Below are positions 10,030 through 23,390 of a stretch of 36,126 nucleotides of DNA, piece after piece. Source of the stretch: Candidatus Pacearchaeota archaeon. Lineage in GTDB: Archaea > Nanobdellota > Nanobdellia > Pacearchaeales > GW2011-AR1. The first letter of the stretch is position 1; every line of letters begins with the position of its first letter. The stretch lies in NCBI GenBank assembly GCA_016196285.1, contig JACPXY010000006.1, positions 1 to 36,126 on the forward strand, given 5' to 3'. A program made the position numbers and the translations under genes. The notes under the pieces were generated by a model. It ran no database searches, was not told the DNA's origin, and was given only the letters and a program-made list of their open reading frames with translations.

Positions 10030-10667
10030 TGCTACGCATTATTAAAAGTTTTTCGAGAAGGGTTCTTGCGAGCTTATTCGGGCGCAAAAGCACTGTTAAG
10101 ATTGGATTCTATGGCCCTCCGAATGCTGGGAAAACCAGTTTAGCAAACCGCATTTGCAAAGACTGGACAGGTGAAGAGATTGGTGTTGTCAGTAAAGTGC
10201 CACATGAGACTAGACATGTGCAGTTCAAAGAAAAGGTGGAGATTAAGCACAAAGGGAAGAACCTTACCTTTAAGATGGTAGACACTCCTGGAATTGCAAC
10301 TAAAATTGATTATGAAGATTTTCTTAAATATGGCATTAAGAAAAATGAGGCAAAGAGGCGGGCAAAAGAAGCAACTCAAGGAATCATTGAATCTATCCAG
10401 TGGCTCGATGATATGGAAGCGGTAGTCATTGTCCTAGATGCGACTGAGAATCCATACTCTCAGGTTAATATCACTATTATTGGGAATCTTGTTGCAAGGA
10501 AGATACCTATCCTCATTGTTGCAAATAAAATTGACTTGCGCAAGGCAGACATCAAGAAAATCGGAGCGGCTTTTCCTGAATATGAGATTGTTGGATTGTC
10601 TGCTAAGGAAGGAACCAACATGGACGAATTTTATGAGGCGCTCTTTAGATTGGCGAAGAAAACATGA
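10029..10667 (+). CDS. Era-like GTP-binding protein (archaeal, TRAFAC class)
   Basis: A 212-aa P-loop GTPase. G1 is GFYGPPNAGKTSLANRI (about 27-43), G3 is MVDTPGIATKID (about 83), G4 is VANKIDL (about 164) and G5 is GLSAKEG (about 193). After a short basic N terminus the whole protein is the G domain, with no KH domain as in bacterial Era. The start overlaps the previous stop (taATG) and the stop overlaps the DUF2073 start (ATGA). An Era-like GTPase next to DUF2073 and a DUF2072 zinc ribbon is a recurrent archaeal arrangement; a ribosome or RNA-related role is usually inferred from the relatives. The link to the upstream surface protein may be transcriptional only. Confidence 0.9.
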   Translation: MLRIIKSFSRRVLASLFGRKSTVKIGFYGPPNAGKTSLANRICKDWTGEEIGVVSKVPHETRHVQFKEKVEIKHKGKNLTFKMVDTPGIATKIDYEDFLKYGIKKNEAKRRAKEATQGIIESIQWLDDMEAVVIVLDATENPYSQVNITIIGNLVARKIPILIVANKIDLRKADIKKIGAAFPEYEIVGLSAKEGTNMDEFYEALFRLAKKT

Positions 10668-11053
10668 GCAAGAGAACATTCAAAGGACTGAGCCTGCATG
10701 TGATACCTTATGCTGAGATTGAGCCGATGGGCATTTCTGAACGTGTTAAAAAGATACTCAGTTTGGTTCTTGGCAATAAGATTGTTATAATCCATGGCAG
10801 ACTGCGTGCCGAAGAGGAGGCGCGGCTCATTGAAGACACTATGGCTATGGTTGACCATATTAAGCATTTTAAGGGCATTGAGCTGGCAGTTATTGAGCCG
10901 AACCTGAGTGATAAGAGTTTGCTTGTCAAAATGAGGTACGGCCTTGCGAAGCGCTTGGTAGGGGACAGTTCTGCATTGACGATTATCGGCCCGAGCAGCA
11001 TTGTCAAGGAAATCAAGAGAGATCCGAGAAAAATTGAGCTGCTTCTGAGCTAA
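10664..11053 (+). CDS. DUF2073 family protein
   Basis: A 129-aa archaeal protein of unknown function, recognised by its overall sequence, including the N-terminal LHVIPYAEIEPM and C-terminal TIIGPSSIVKEIKRDP. It is an alpha/beta protein without membrane segments or cysteines. It overlaps the Era-like GTPase gene by 4 bases (ATGA), which indicates translational coupling. The DUF2072 zinc ribbon of the same conserved neighbourhood lies about 280 bases further on, separated by a probable pseudogene. A shared complex of GTPase, DUF2073 and zinc ribbon is an inference from conserved neighbourhood. Confidence 0.85.
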   Translation: MSKRTFKGLSLHVIPYAEIEPMGISERVKKILSLVLGNKIVIIHGRLRAEEEARLIEDTMAMVDHIKHFKGIELAVIEPNLSDKSLLVKMRYGLAKRLVGDSSALTIIGPSSIVKEIKRDPRKIELLLS

Positions 11054-11093: not shown

Positions 11094-11312
11094 ACTCATT
11101 ACGGAGTATTCAACTCAGAATGTAGTGAAGAACCCTATAGCATCAGACTAAGAAAAGAAGAAGATCATTATCCAGAATACGATGAGCTTTGTAGACATCA
11201 GCTAATATTATTTAACTTTGATATTTATCTCCTACCTGGCTTTATCCCAAGGTAATACTTTAGAGTATTAGAAGATAATAAAGAAATTATTGAAGAGCTA
11301 AATCTTTATTAA
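11094..11312 (+). pseudogene. Probable remnant of a small protein gene
   Basis: The gap between DUF2073 and the zinc ribbon gene contains a frame that reads like a protein but has no intact ORF. From 11094 it gives 53 codons with balanced, charged composition (for example EEDHYPEYDELCRHQLILFN and DIYLLPGFIPR), a TAA at 11253-11255, then YFRVLEDNKEIIEELNLY and a second TAA at 11310-11312. The frame can be followed further upstream (FCYRGHEVNS) across another TAA at 11091-11093. Three stops in about 85 codons fit a decayed gene. The family is not recognised. The final stop overlaps the ATG at 11312. An inverted repeat in the same stretch offers a rival RNA explanation. Confidence 0.4.
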
Positions 11313-11332
11313 TGCTTAGAGTATACGGGTGT

Positions 11333-11710
11333 ATGCCTTATCGATGTGTCCATTGTACAAAGACTTACCGTGACGGCTCCCAGGAAGTACTCCAAGGATG
11401 CACGTGCGGAAGCAAGTTTTTCTTCTATATTAAAGAAGAGAAGCTGCGCGAAATTACATCGCAAGCTCCTGAAGAATTCGAGCTCACTCCTACTGAGAAG
11501 AAGCAAGTCGAGGAAGATGTCCGGGAGATTGCAGGTGTCACGGACGAAGAAATGCCTGTATTTCTTGACTTTGAAAGCATCAGAATCATCAAACCTGGCA
11601 AGTATCTCCTTGATCTGGGTAAACTATTTGCAATTGACAAGCCTAGAGTTTATAAGCTGGAAGATGGCAAATATATTGTTGACCTTGCTGCAAAAGTAAA
11701 GCCCAACTAA
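11333..11710 (+). CDS. DUF2072 zinc-ribbon protein
   Basis: Archaeal zinc-ribbon protein. The N terminus MPYRCVHCTKTYRDGSQ plus GCTCGSKFFFY supplies a CxxC...CxC zinc ribbon, as in DUF2072 proteins, which usually begin MPH.C..C. For that reason, and because a TATA-like tttattaat (about 11305-11313) lies about 24 bases before it, I choose the ATG at 11333 rather than the ORF-track start at 11312. A charged linker and a small beta-rich C-terminal domain (about 65-125) follow. The family neighbours the Era-like GTPase and DUF2073, encoded just upstream; the function is unknown and probably RNA or ribosome related. Confidence 0.85.
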   Translation: MPYRCVHCTKTYRDGSQEVLQGCTCGSKFFFYIKEEKLREITSQAPEEFELTPTEKKQVEEDVREIAGVTDEEMPVFLDFESIRIIKPGKYLLDLGKLFAIDKPRVYKLEDGKYIVDLAAKVKPN

Positions 11711-13466: not shown

Positions 13467-14243
13467 TCAATTCCTCAATGTCTTTTCTACCAGATTATGC
13501 AATGATTCGGTGAAGAATTCCGAATTAAGCCAGACACCCATCTCCTCTTCTGAGGTTTCTGGGGTCAGCATCAGCAATGCCTGCTTCTTGTCTGCCATAA
13601 AGAATCTGGCAGATGCTTCAACATGTTTTGCTTTGAGATTGAATCGTGCATTAAGCCTCTTGACGCGCTCAGCATCGCCGGAGAGGGCTATCTTAACCTT
13701 TATATTGCTCTTAATAAGCTTCTCTAAAGCAGGGATTAAAACGCGCGACTTATCCTCTAGGTCGAGTGCTGAGGTGCAAATCAATACTTCTTTTGTAGAA
13801 CTCTCGATAAGATCGCGAAGCTTTGAGATAACATTTGACCTGCCCTTGAGTGAGCCGGTGATATCGCTTGACTTAATCGGAGCAATGCCTGCGTTGTGCA
13901 GCTGCTCTAGCTCGAGATATTCATTTGTATCCTTTAGAACTACTAAAGACTTTACGCGCTCATGAGCTTCATGGAGAGTCTCGGTTTTCATCTTCTCAAT
14001 AATTTCTGTCGGCTTTATTGAGATGTACTTTACTGGCTTGCCAATCTTCACTATGGCAAATCCTCGCTTCTCAAGAGATTCCAGCACATCATATGTTCGT
14101 GAACGAGGAACATTTGAAATCTCCGCAATCTCTCCTGCAGAGGCTATTCCTTTTGATAGCAAAGCCAGCCAGACTTTCGTCTCGTAAATGTTCAAGTTAA
14201 AGTAATCCTTGATTCTCCTAACCAACTCTGGTTTAATTATCAT
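13467..14243 (-). CDS. TrmB-family transcriptional regulator
   Basis: A 258-aa regulator. The N-terminal winged helix-turn-helix (about 10-78) has the TrmB pattern LNIYETKVWLALLSKG, then SAGEIAEISNVPRSRTYDVL and a wing (KRGFAIVKIGKPVKYISIKP). A helical linker leads to a C-terminal effector domain (about 125-255) of the phospholipase D-like fold used by TrmB-type regulators (KEVLICTSALDLED, KVKIALSGDAERVK). Family members bind sugars or other ligands; none can be named here. The promoter (atttaaata, plus 14266-14275) is spaced for a leaderless start at 14243. It shares a 103-base divergent intergenic region with the AT-rich gene at 14347, which may be a target. Confidence 0.88.
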   Translation of the reverse strand: MIIKPELVRRIKDYFNLNIYETKVWLALLSKGIASAGEIAEISNVPRSRTYDVLESLEKRGFAIVKIGKPVKYISIKPTEIIEKMKTETLHEAHERVKSLVVLKDTNEYLELEQLHNAGIAPIKSSDITGSLKGRSNVISKLRDLIESSTKEVLICTSALDLEDKSRVLIPALEKLIKSNIKVKIALSGDAERVKRLNARFNLKAKHVEASARFFMADKKQALLMLTPETSEEEMGVWLNSEFFTESLHNLVEKTLRN

Positions 14244-18599: not shown

Positions 18600-20669
18600 T
18601 TAAGGTTTTTGGTAGACGCTCTGCATAGGCTCAATCACTGATGAGCCTATATCTTTTCGAATCCTGATAGTATGATCAATGAATCCTTCTATTTTTGGCT
18701 CGTGACTGACGATAATGAGCTGCTTAATCTTGAGCTGCTCAAGAACATCGCGAATCTTGTCCACCTGCGCCTCTGAAAAACCTTCTGTCGGCTCATCTAG
18801 AATAATGATATCTTTTGTCTTGATAGTGCTTAAGAGTGAATTAATGGTCTGATTTAATGCAAGGCGATATGCAAGAGCGACTGCTGTTCTCTCGCCTCCT
18901 GAGAGAAAGGCGTAGTCCATTTCAACTCCTGACTGGACAATGAGAGGTGTAAAGTTTTCATCAAGCTGAATCTCAAATGTTTCTCCTGCAATCATCTGGA
19001 ACCATCTGCTGAAGAGACGTGAGAACTCGTGGCGTAGCTTGAGCATTACTTGCCTCTCAATGAAATCAATCATGATTAGATAGTGATTAGCTATCCAATC
19101 GCTCGCTTCCAAAAGTGTGTTGAGATGTGTGCGTGTTTTCTCTTTCTCCTTGATTGAGATAATCAAGCGCGTCCGCTCTTTGTGCAGTAATTCAAGTTCT
19201 TTATTCAGCTCAGCACGCTTAATCTCAACTCCTTTCTCCTGTATGAATGCCTTCTTCAATTCCTCCAGTTTCCGTTTGTACGCTGCGTCAAATGAAGAAA
19301 GCTTGAGAATTTGTGTTTTCAACATATCAATATGAGCAAGTAAGAGCTCGATATCTCCCTTTAGGGTGATTTTCTGCTTGTTGATCTCTTCCATTTTCCG
19401 ATGCGCCTGCTCCCTAAACTGTTCTCTTGACTGTTGAATCTCTAGGTCTGCCTTTCGGCGCTCAAGGAGTTCAAGCTCCTCCCTGATAATCAAGCGCTGT
19501 GAAGAAACCTGCGCCCGAATTTTCTCTGCCTCGGAAATTTTCTTTCCAAGTTCAGAAAGTTTGTTTTCTGCTTCATTAAGTATGTTATGCTTGTGCGCAG
19601 GAGGCACATCCTGCAGGCACGTTGGGCACATCTCTAATGAAAAAACGCTGTCTTTCCGTGCTTGAATCTCGCGCTTCTGCTGCTGCAATAATTGAAGCGC
19701 TGCTCCTGTCTTAATATACTCTCCTTCCAAATTATCGCGCTGAGCTTTGCAGTAATGCAGACTTCGTACTGCTTCATTGTATGCTTCTGGCTTGAAAGGA
19801 ATAATGTTAGTAAGACTCTGTCTAAGCTCAGTCTCCTGCCGATCGAGAGCTGCAAGAGTTTCCTGCTTTGATACAATAAGAATTTTTGTCTTGGCGATCT
19901 CCTGCTCCAGGTGCTCTTTCTCCTTTATCCTGACTTCCAGATCTGCAATCTCTTTTTCCGTCAGCTTCCTGGCTTCAATGGCTCTCTGAAGCTTTTGCAT
20001 CGTCTCCAAGAAGGAGCTCTCTAGTAAACTTATTCTGCTTTCGGCTGCTGACTGCAGAGACCTTTCTTGTTCAATCAATTTGACCTCTGCCTGCAGTGTT
20101 TTGCTCTCGTCTTTGAACCTGAGCAATGCCTTGGAGGCATTCTCCCGTATGAGCTTGTATTTATCAATACCGAAGATATGCCTCAGAATTGAGAAGCGAG
20201 TTTCTGCATCTTCAAGAATAATCTGCTTCATGTGCTCTTGTGGAGTATAGACAGTGTATTTATAGAGCATGTTTGTTTTCTTGACAAACTCAGAGGGGTA
20301 ACCTAGTAGTTCAAGAATTTTTGTCTTAAGCTCGGTAGTGGAGTATTCGTTCTTTACTCCATTTATTGTGAGTGCTGCATAATCGCTGGTAATAGTTCTT
20401 GCTTCACGCTTCAGACGCCTCTCAATTAATATCTCTTTGCCTTCTATCTCGCATTCGACCTCGACCTCGGCGCTCTCTGCACCATTCCGCAAAAGGGATG
20501 CAGCCCGCTGTCCTGCTTGAAGGCCGAACAAAGCGTATTCTAATGCAAGAAGAATTGTTGTCTTCCCAGAACCAACATTTCCTGCAAGCAATACTGCACC
20601 ATCGGGGAACTCTATCTCTGCATCCTCGTAACTTCGCACGTTGCGCAATTTGAGCCGTTTAAATCTCAT
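18600..20669 (-). CDS. rad50: Rad50 DNA repair ATPase
   Basis: SMC-like ATPase that bridges and processes DNA ends with Mre11. Start set at the ATG that overlaps the mre11 stop by 4 bases, giving 689 aa beginning MRFKRLKLRNVRSYEDAEI; the longer ORF-track start lies inside mre11. Walker A is GNVGSGKTTILLAL (about 34-47). Long coiled coils flank a zinc hook EMCPTCLQD (about residue 349), exactly mid-protein. The ABC signature is FLSGGERTAVALAY (about 586) and Walker B is IIILDEPTEGFSE (about 625). It is shorter than typical archaeal Rad50 (about 850-900 aa), so the coiled-coil arms are reduced while both heads and hook are complete. Confidence 0.95.
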   Translation of the reverse strand: MRFKRLKLRNVRSYEDAEIEFPDGAVLLAGNVGSGKTTILLALEYALFGLQAGQRAASLLRNGAESAEVEVECEIEGKEILIERRLKREARTITSDYAALTINGVKNEYSTTELKTKILELLGYPSEFVKKTNMLYKYTVYTPQEHMKQIILEDAETRFSILRHIFGIDKYKLIRENASKALLRFKDESKTLQAEVKLIEQERSLQSAAESRISLLESSFLETMQKLQRAIEARKLTEKEIADLEVRIKEKEHLEQEIAKTKILIVSKQETLAALDRQETELRQSLTNIIPFKPEAYNEAVRSLHYCKAQRDNLEGEYIKTGAALQLLQQQKREIQARKDSVFSLEMCPTCLQDVPPAHKHNILNEAENKLSELGKKISEAEKIRAQVSSQRLIIREELELLERRKADLEIQQSREQFREQAHRKMEEINKQKITLKGDIELLLAHIDMLKTQILKLSSFDAAYKRKLEELKKAFIQEKGVEIKRAELNKELELLHKERTRLIISIKEKEKTRTHLNTLLEASDWIANHYLIMIDFIERQVMLKLRHEFSRLFSRWFQMIAGETFEIQLDENFTPLIVQSGVEMDYAFLSGGERTAVALAYRLALNQTINSLLSTIKTKDIIILDEPTEGFSEAQVDKIRDVLEQLKIKQLIIVSHEPKIEGFIDHTIRIRKDIGSSVIEPMQSVYQKP

Positions 20670-21814
20670 AGCTGCAAAACCTTCCGCACTTCTGAACATA
20701 AGCGATCTTCGAATATCTCTGCTTTCTCATCATCCATCTGCTCAATTTGGAATGCCCTGAGCAGAGAAGGTATCTGCGCATTGTATTTGCTTGGATGCAC
20801 TGCAATGAACTTCTCGATTATAGAAGATTCTAGATTCGCTGGATCAGTTACTTCCAGTTCTATCCCTGCTTCGTTATGAACAAGTTTTGTTGTGCTTTTA
20901 ATAAATGAATATGCGCCTTTCTTCCTCACTTTCTCTTCAATTCTTGGAAAGTCTATATCAACAATTCTTCCCTTTTCCACTAATCCTTTCAAGTGCAGAA
21001 TTACTATATTATCTTTTACCTTCTGGTTCTCAAAGAATTCTATTAACTGATGTGTTGCAGTAAGCGCATTGGTAATCTCAAATGTAAAAGAGCTTATCTC
21101 GCGTAGTTTGATGCTCTCTCTTCGAACCTTGCCATTGTCAAAGATGTAGAATGAGCCGCCTTTCAACTCCTCTAGCTCGGCAAGAGTATTTGGGAAAATC
21201 GGGCCAGAATATACTCTATTCTCTTTCTGATAAATCACGTGAAGATGCGAGAGTGCTAGATAATCCACTTTTGGCAAGCGCTTTTCTTCCACCGCAGGGA
21301 TAGGCAGGCTGCCGACTGCATCGCGAATTGCAGTATGAAGCATGAGAATCTTGAACATGCCTGGTGCGTCCTGCAGATGTATGCGCTTGATATCCTCTAC
21401 CTCCAAGCCGGACTTCCTTCCAGGATAACCGTAGAGTGCAACATTCTTGTGCAATGTTGGAAGCAGCATCAATGCCATCTTATGCTCCTCGAAGACTGCG
21501 GTATTTGTACAGAATCCTGCTTTCTCTAGAACATCAAGAAAAGTCTTGCCTGATGCGGAATAATCGTGGCTTCCTGCAATAAGAAAGACAGGAATCTTTG
21601 CCTCTTTGAGCTTGCGGAACTCATTGAAAGTCTCTTTCAGCGTTTCAATCGGCGGATACGCAGAATCAAACAGATCGCCAGATATGAGGATAAACTCTAC
21701 TTTCTCTTTGATGCAGAAGGAGACTGCATACTGAAACGATTGTAGGTTCAGCTCTTTTAATTCGGGTTGCCTCCAGCCACCGAGATGGCAGTCGCCCATG
21801 TGTGCAAACTTCAT
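20666..21814 (-). CDS. mre11: Mre11 nuclease
   Basis: Mn-dependent nuclease of the Mre11-Rad50 break-repair complex, 382 aa from the ATG at 21814 (MKFAHMGDCHLGGWRQ). This start is chosen because it places the first metal motif at the very N terminus, as in the family, and because a TATA-like ttatatatag (21834-21844) is about 25 bases upstream. Phosphoesterase motifs are GDCHLGG, ISGDLFDSAYPP, AGSHDYS, ILMLHTAI and LSHLHVIY. The third motif has Ser where many Mre11 proteins have Asn (GNHD). The C terminus (about 300-382) should bind the Rad50 coiled-coil base. It is transcribed with rad50 from a promoter overlapping a 36-bp palindrome. Confidence 0.95.
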   Translation of the reverse strand: MKFAHMGDCHLGGWRQPELKELNLQSFQYAVSFCIKEKVEFILISGDLFDSAYPPIETLKETFNEFRKLKEAKIPVFLIAGSHDYSASGKTFLDVLEKAGFCTNTAVFEEHKMALMLLPTLHKNVALYGYPGRKSGLEVEDIKRIHLQDAPGMFKILMLHTAIRDAVGSLPIPAVEEKRLPKVDYLALSHLHVIYQKENRVYSGPIFPNTLAELEELKGGSFYIFDNGKVRRESIKLREISSFTFEITNALTATHQLIEFFENQKVKDNIVILHLKGLVEKGRIVDIDFPRIEEKVRKKGAYSFIKSTTKLVHNEAGIELEVTDPANLESSIIEKFIAVHPSKYNAQIPSLLRAFQIEQMDDEKAEIFEDRLCSEVRKVLQL

Positions 21815-21833
21815 AAAATTTTCTGACAAGGAA

Positions 21834-21844
21834 GTTATATATAG
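21834..21844 (-). promoter_or_regulatory. TATA box of mre11-rad50
   Basis: On the minus strand this reads ctatatataa and is centred about 25 bases before the mre11 ATG at 21814, the leaderless spacing seen elsewhere in the window. The left end of a perfect palindrome (21839-21874) runs into it, so a protein on the palindrome could block or help TBP/TFB. Confidence 0.6.
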
Positions 21845-21874
21845 ATTGTGGCAATATATTGCCACAATCTATAT
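21839..21874. repeat. Perfect 36-bp palindrome upstream of mre11
   Basis: Each half reads atatagattgtggcaata from the outside to the centre between bases 21856 and 21857. I checked all 18 base pairs by hand and they match, with no spacer. It overlaps the mre11 TATA box and covers the TFB/BRE side of the promoter. A symmetric operator for a dimeric regulator is the simplest reading. A cruciform-forming site is an alternative. Confidence 0.9.
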
Positions 21875-21951
21875 TAGAAAAGCTTGAGTTAAAAAGATTT
21901 ATTCCTGGTGTGTTGGATGGAATTGATTTAAAACGGAGAAGAGTTCAGAGA

Positions 21952-22494
21952 TTACGTGCACGTTATCGGCTGTATTATTACAGCATTTGAACAAAGTGCA
22001 AGCTCGTCATTGGTATATGCTGCCGGCTGAATCTCAATTTTGTACTCTCCTGGAGAGTCAATTATATCTGCAGGTACAAAGTAAGAACGAGAGAACTGTT
22101 TTGCAGGAGGAAGCCCTTGTGCATTAGGATTTGTGCAGTCATCTGAAAGAAAGAATGAGCAGTGGCCCTGACCTTCCTCTTCTTCGGGATTGTTCAATAA
22201 GGTGCCAACACGCCTTCCTTCTTTGCTGATACGAATGTAAGCTGCATCTACCGTGAACAGCCCTTTGTTAACTAATACAATTGATAATGAGGTCTGCCCA
22301 TTCTGTGCGTAGGTGCAGGTGTATGACTGAAGAGCAAGAGCGATGTCGTCTGAACATTGCAGCTTATTCTTTGGCACGTAAACTGAGAGGTAATTGAAGA
22401 CTAAAGCGCTCAGTCCGACAGCGATGATGACTAGTAGAACATAACTGAGCATCTCAGTCACTCCGCGTTTATCGGTAGACAACCACTTCCTCAT
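21952..22494 (-). CDS. Archaeal type IV pilin-like protein
   Basis: A 180-aa secreted filament-type protein. The N terminus MRKWLSTDKRG is followed by VTEMLSYVLLVIIAVGLSAL, the typical class III signal and helix of archaeal adhesion pilins (cleavage after KRG). The mature domain has several cysteine pairs (KLQCSDD, SYTCTYAQ, GHCSFFLSDDC, LALCSNA) likely to form disulfides. Its start lies 26 bases inside the upstream pilin-like gene, so the two are one transcription unit. It is separate from the filament locus at the left end but may feed the same machine. Confidence 0.8.
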   Translation of the reverse strand: MRKWLSTDKRGVTEMLSYVLLVIIAVGLSALVFNYLSVYVPKNKLQCSDDIALALQSYTCTYAQNGQTSLSIVLVNKGLFTVDAAYIRISKEGRRVGTLLNNPEEEEGQGHCSFFLSDDCTNPNAQGLPPAKQFSRSYFVPADIIDSPGEYKIEIQPAAYTNDELALCSNAVIIQPITCT

Positions 22495-23074: not shown

Positions 23075-23114
23075 GAAAACATGAGTGGTTGATTGTTTTT
23101 ATATGTTATCAAGT

Positions 23115-23368
23115 GTAGACGGGGAGATTGCTCGGCTTTCATACAGAGTATCTTGAGCCATTCTCAGCTTTGTTCCCCTGCAAGCACCATACGTCCTGTT
23201 GAGGGCTGCTTCATTCCTGACCTGACCCAGTTCCCAGGAGTACGATCGAGCAGGACAAAACGTCAACGTTTGACACGAGACTTTTGTATGTCTGCTTCAC
23301 GCACTCCTTTAAGCCCGCCATAAAGCCCGTTTGCGGATAGCGTGGGGCTAGCACGCCGGCTCGTCTAC
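23115..23368 (-). ncRNA. ffs: Signal recognition particle (7S) RNA
   Basis: On the minus strand the SRP54-binding helix 8 is unmistakable: gtcaggtcaggaatgaagca (within plus 23203-23228), with the GGAA tetraloop and the asymmetric loop nucleotides of the family. The enclosing stem GUCCUG/CAGGAC is present. The termini GUAGACG (5') and CGUCUAC (3') pair, giving helix 1 of an archaeal SRP RNA. A TATA-like element (plus 23391-23398) sits about 26 bases before the proposed 5' end. The length of about 254 nt is a little short for archaea (about 300). The ends are estimates from this pairing and may be off by a few bases. Confidence 0.92.
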
Positions 23369-23390
23369 GATATAGACGAGGGGATAGGGT

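Follow-up and report, generated by a model that had tools for sequence, protein, structure and literature searches.

A perfect 36-bp palindrome on the mre11-rad50 promoter of a Pacearchaeota archaeon and its suggested origin by inverted duplication of promoter DNA

Why does a long and perfect palindrome lie on the promoter of the mre11-rad50 operon in a Pacearchaeota archaeon, and does it serve a regulator, a DNA structure or nothing in particular? The palindrome is located at positions 21839-21874 of the analysed stretch of 36,126 nucleotides (hereafter the window) and reads ATATAGATTGTGGCAATA / TATTGCCACAATCTATAT. The direct reading of the pairing confirmed what the first-pass annotation had described: all 18 of the 18 pairs match and the spacer is 0 bp, so that the feature (18+18, with no strand of its own) is fully symmetrical.

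The 36-bp palindrome is not a product of chance. In stretches of the host genome totalling 358 kb, window included, perfect spacerless palindromes with arms of 6, 7, 8, 9 and 10 bp occur 50, 14, 6, 1 and 3 times, respectively. Above 10 bp, there is one palindrome with 12-bp arms and then the one with 18-bp arms. The longest arm in a third-order Markov control was 12 bp, the longest ones in two relatives (200 kb each) are 9 and 8 bp, and the next best inverted repeats of the window are imperfect or reach 11 bp. Extrapolation of the approximately four-fold drop per added pair gives an expectation of ~1e-5 palindromes with 18-bp arms per whole genome. The second longest palindrome that we found in the same genome, a draft of 72 contigs that is about 81% complete, is a perfect one of 24 bp (TTAAGGAAACCGCGGTTTCCTTAA, L106:10419-10442), which is intergenic and directly precedes an apparent tRNA gene.

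The surroundings of the palindrome are those of an ordinary operon start. On the minus strand, mre11 (20666-21814, ATG at 21814) encodes a calcineurin-like phosphoesterase and rad50 (18600-20699) a protein with AAA_23/SMC_N domain matches and the zinc-hook CPTC. The upstream gene (21952-22494, minus strand) codes for a small protein that appears pilin-like, judging from its N-terminus, but gives no Pfam match above the cut-off, and it adjoins mre11 in several relatives too. An SRP RNA gene recognised with Rfam models is located further upstream (23113-23370, minus strand). At the Rfam gathering threshold it is labelled Bacteria_small_SRP, while the archaeal SRP model gives a full-length match that remains under that model's own cut-off, as is the case in the relatives. 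We therefore regard the bacterial label as a labelling quirk and the gene as an ordinary archaeal SRP RNA. The window also encodes the origin-associated proteins OapB and OapC (10664-11053 and 11312-11710, plus strand), given which a replication origin may be located nearby.

The relation of the two arms to the mre11 promoter is the key to the history of the palindrome. With a promoter matrix built on 26 relatives, the window being left out, the site at 21852-21833 on the minus strand ranks first among the 72,214 sites of the window, and its score of 24.1 is close to the median of the relatives (24.6). This core promoter (BRE/TATA, 21833-21852) precedes the mre11 ATG at 21814 on the same strand, so that the overlap with the BRE and TATA box, which had been noticed before, is real. 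The matrix match also identifies the promoter-proximal arm (21839-21856, minus strand) as the old BRE plus the first half of the mre11 TATA box, and this arm matches the consensus ACAACAATCTATAAATAACC, the core promoter common to the mre11 upstream regions of the closest relatives. In contrast, the promoter-distal arm (21857-21874, plus strand), an inverted copy of the proximal one, has no counterpart that we could find in the relatives. Its mirror site at 21861-21880 on the plus strand scores only 1.3 with the same matrix, since the TATA box is truncated where the distal arm ends, and the mirror promoter is thus incomplete. The distance of 25 nt between the centre of the TATA box and the mre11 ATG, which is the same in most relatives, implies that the mre11 mRNA is probably leaderless.

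The comparison with relatives speaks against an old and maintained element. While mre11 is present in 169 of 180 family genomes, we read its upstream region in 42 relatives, the nearest of which are only about 66% identical in Mre11, so that the comparison covers no shorter divergence. None of the 42 has an inverted repeat with perfect arms longer than 8 bp within 130 nt upstream of mre11. The 20-bp core of the palindrome, allowing up to three mismatches, is found in no other mre11 promoter of the 179 family genomes searched, and near-matches in two of them (G106 and G126) are neither at mre11 nor palindromic. It had been proposed earlier that the preservation of such a palindrome next to this operon is a sign of selection, that related genomes should be inspected for it, and that its absence from close relatives would count against the idea. 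As none of the 42 relatives inspected has it at the mre11 promoter, this proposal is not borne out, and the perfect arms are therefore better read as a sign of recent origin than of long maintenance.

The intergenic region itself has also grown. From the upstream stop codon to mre11 there are ~40 nt in relatives with the same upstream gene, such as G002, G049, G069 and G058, versus 137 nt here, and the additional 97 bp or so correspond to the distal arm and a spacer of 77 nt (21875-21951, minus strand) between the stop codon and the palindrome. This spacer is without counterpart in the relatives, and no second copy of it was found in the genome. The order of SRP RNA gene, upstream gene and mre11 is kept in the relatives G001 and G002. 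In another relative, G172, promoter DNA has been duplicated at mre11 too: a 53-bp unit, which includes a small hairpin and the upstream portion of the promoter itself, is repeated perfectly in tandem (2.6 copies) ahead of the mre11 promoter (L075:1191-1326). Related units precede mre11 in L072 and L076 as well.

Taken together, we slightly favor the explanation that the palindrome goes back to an inverted duplication of promoter DNA specific to this lineage, which probably arose via template switching. According to this explanation, the starting state would have been the old mre11 promoter, whose BRE and half TATA box make up one arm. The reverse complement of this arm would then have been inserted directly upstream, most likely in a single template-switch event during replication, and this duplication would fall within the approximately 97 bp that the relatives are missing. 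Transcription of a leaderless mre11-rad50 mRNA would still be driven by the old arm, and the palindrome would accordingly be located upstream of the transcript and outside its 5' end, whereas the new arm would yield only an incomplete promoter in the opposite direction. A dedicated function of the palindrome would not be needed.

Several observations fit this scenario. The identity of the arms is perfect out to the last base of both, which points to a copying event, while operators would usually tolerate changes between the contacts. Template switching has been documented to create perfect reverse-complement stems in a single event (PMC8794818), and the pattern to be expected from it, one ancestral arm and one derived arm that is absent in relatives, is the one found here. 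With regard to the switch points, the nearest relatives have only ~66% Mre11 identity and the intergenic region has also gained 77 nt. Two observations speak against a reading as duplication only, namely the placement on BRE and TATA box and the occurrence of the same core in bacterial regulatory regions. However, a palindrome that arose by duplication could still have acquired a function later.

The main rival explanation, which we consider possible but clearly less probable than the duplication, is that the palindrome is a repressor operator on the mre11 promoter, bound by a hypothetical dimeric regulator. A dimeric regulator had been considered in the first-pass annotation, and the overlap with BRE and TATA box is what one would expect of an archaeal repressor operator; the repressor TrmB, for instance, acts over BRE/TATA at the Pyrococcus malE promoter (PMC4158304). 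The conservation at orthologous promoters that one would expect of an operator, provided that the relatives share its regulator, is missing, however, since none of the 42 relatives inspected possesses the site (nearest ~66% identical in Mre11). Furthermore, no regulator gene adjoins it. The nearest one identified, about 8 kb away, belongs to the TrmB family (13467-14243, minus strand), and no other regulator was recognised among those proteins of the window that were scanned.

Further support for an operator comes from bacteria. In a search of 264 Gb, the palindromic core TGTGGCAATATATTGCCACA was matched over 20-24 bp in two spirochaetes and in Clostridium tyrobutyricum. All three sites are intergenic, single copy in their genome and near a gene for a winged-helix regulator, and since they are single copy as well, the occurrence of only one copy in the archaeon does not count against an operator. 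In the two spirochaete genomes (L150:224-245 and L151:272-295), the intergenic palindrome TTGTGGCAATATATTGCCACAA has a gene for NrpR (PF01995 and PF08461) close by, and in the latter genome it is located directly before the glutamate synthase gene gltB. It is a candidate for a bacterial NrpR operator, although the NrpR site in methanogens, GGAA-N6-TTCC, is unlike it. In C. tyrobutyricum (L149:7346-7377), a perfect palindrome of 32 bp (ATTAATTGTGGCAATATATTGCCACAATTAAT) is flanked by an ABC transporter operon on one side and by a divergent gene of the Rrf2/HTH type on the other, and its central 24 bp are shared with the palindrome of the window.

The spirochaete matches suggested NrpR as a regulator of mre11, a candidate that we rejected because NrpR is absent from the archaeal genome (about 81% complete). 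PF01995 was detected neither there nor in 19 relatives, and the HTH_12 domain of NrpR (PF08461) was not detected in this genome either. Since the C. tyrobutyricum genome lacks NrpR as well, a regulator shared by the archaeal and the clostridial site is not indicated. Moreover, if palindromes are as frequent elsewhere as in the host genome, matches of 20 bp among unrelated palindromes are expected about once to a few times in 264 Gb. On the same assumption the 24-bp match is less expected (estimated at about 0.04 to 0.1), which makes the likeness to C. tyrobutyricum a mild puzzle. We consider the resemblance of the core to the bacterial palindromes as probably coincidental. The more specific proposal that a 36-bp operator controls mre11-rad50 in this archaeon with a reduced genome and that the half-site of its hypothetical dimeric regulator, TTGTGGCAATA, is common to regulators of unrelated bacterial operons is accordingly a rather doubtful one.

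The remaining explanations are all very improbable. The first-pass annotation had considered that the operon might be controlled by a structure recognised by its own products. A cruciform or hairpin would then be bound or cut by Mre11-Rad50 at its own promoter. A single strand is indeed predicted to form a hairpin, with 16 bp in the stem and 4 nt in the loop (-15 kcal/mol, z -7.6), and yeast Mre11 complexes attack hairpins with loops of <9 nt (PMC8053094). However, the palindrome is located beside mre11 in one genome only, and the cutting of the operon's own promoter would be costly. In addition, the SbcCD/Mre11 targets within cells are much longer in the papers found, namely 460 bp (PMC4245961) and 160 bp (as cited in PMC8053094). 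This idea finds no support.

Equally improbable is a role as RNA, in which the hairpin would belong to an mre11 leader or would terminate or process transcripts that read through from the upstream gene. The minus strand RNA is predicted to form the same strong hairpin, but the stem is not followed by a T-run, a search for terminator-like sites found none, and the 25-nt distance between TATA box and ATG puts the mre11 start at the ATG and the hairpin outside that mRNA.

We also give very little credit to the assumption of a mobile or dispersed palindromic repeat or of an assembly artefact, even though the host genome is a draft of many contigs. A REP- or MITE-like dispersed repeat would need several copies per genome, whereas no second copy of the whole palindrome was found in the host genome (about 81% complete). 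The search for further half-sites, as had been suggested earlier, revealed only one other exact copy in the genome (C52), and this copy lies within an ORF. With up to two mismatches there are 33 matches, and as these are mostly within ORFs, a regulon is not visible. Viral contigs matched neither the core nor its relaxed form, and matches in plasmids were at chance level only. With respect to an artefact, the two arms have different flanking sequences, and the gene order on both sides is as in G001 and G002, which rules out a chimeric join.

The palindrome is thus a striking feature of a single genome, for which the simplest account is a mutational one. If the inverted duplication is true, the locus represents a clean case of a promoter whose inverted copy has stayed free of changes. 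It would also illustrate a one-step route to operator-like palindromes ahead of their use by any regulator. If, on the other hand, the palindrome is an operator, it would offer an entry to the regulation of double-strand-break repair by mre11-rad50 in a poorly studied group of archaea.

Compared to known systems, the palindrome resembles the TrmB operator at malE of Pyrococcus in its overlap with BRE and TATA box. However, that operator (TACT-N3-AGTA) is short, has a spacer and a known regulator (PMC4158304), whereas the mre11 palindrome comprises 36 bp, is perfect and not conserved, and no regulator of it was found. With the palindromes of the spirochaetes and C. tyrobutyricum it shares the core of 20-24 bp, the intergenic position and the single copy, but the neighbouring genes differ. 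Like the targets of SbcCD/Mre11-Rad50 it is a perfect palindrome with a predicted small-loop hairpin, but it measures 36 bp instead of hundreds of bp. With respect to template-switch palindromes and quasipalindrome correction, the event is a proposed one here, and a 0-bp spacer with 18-bp arms on a promoter is unusual in this genome. Nevertheless, the mre11 palindrome has in common with template-switch palindromes the perfect reverse-complement arms, the restriction to one lineage and a possible origin in one event beside existing sequence (PMC8794818, PMC7202029).
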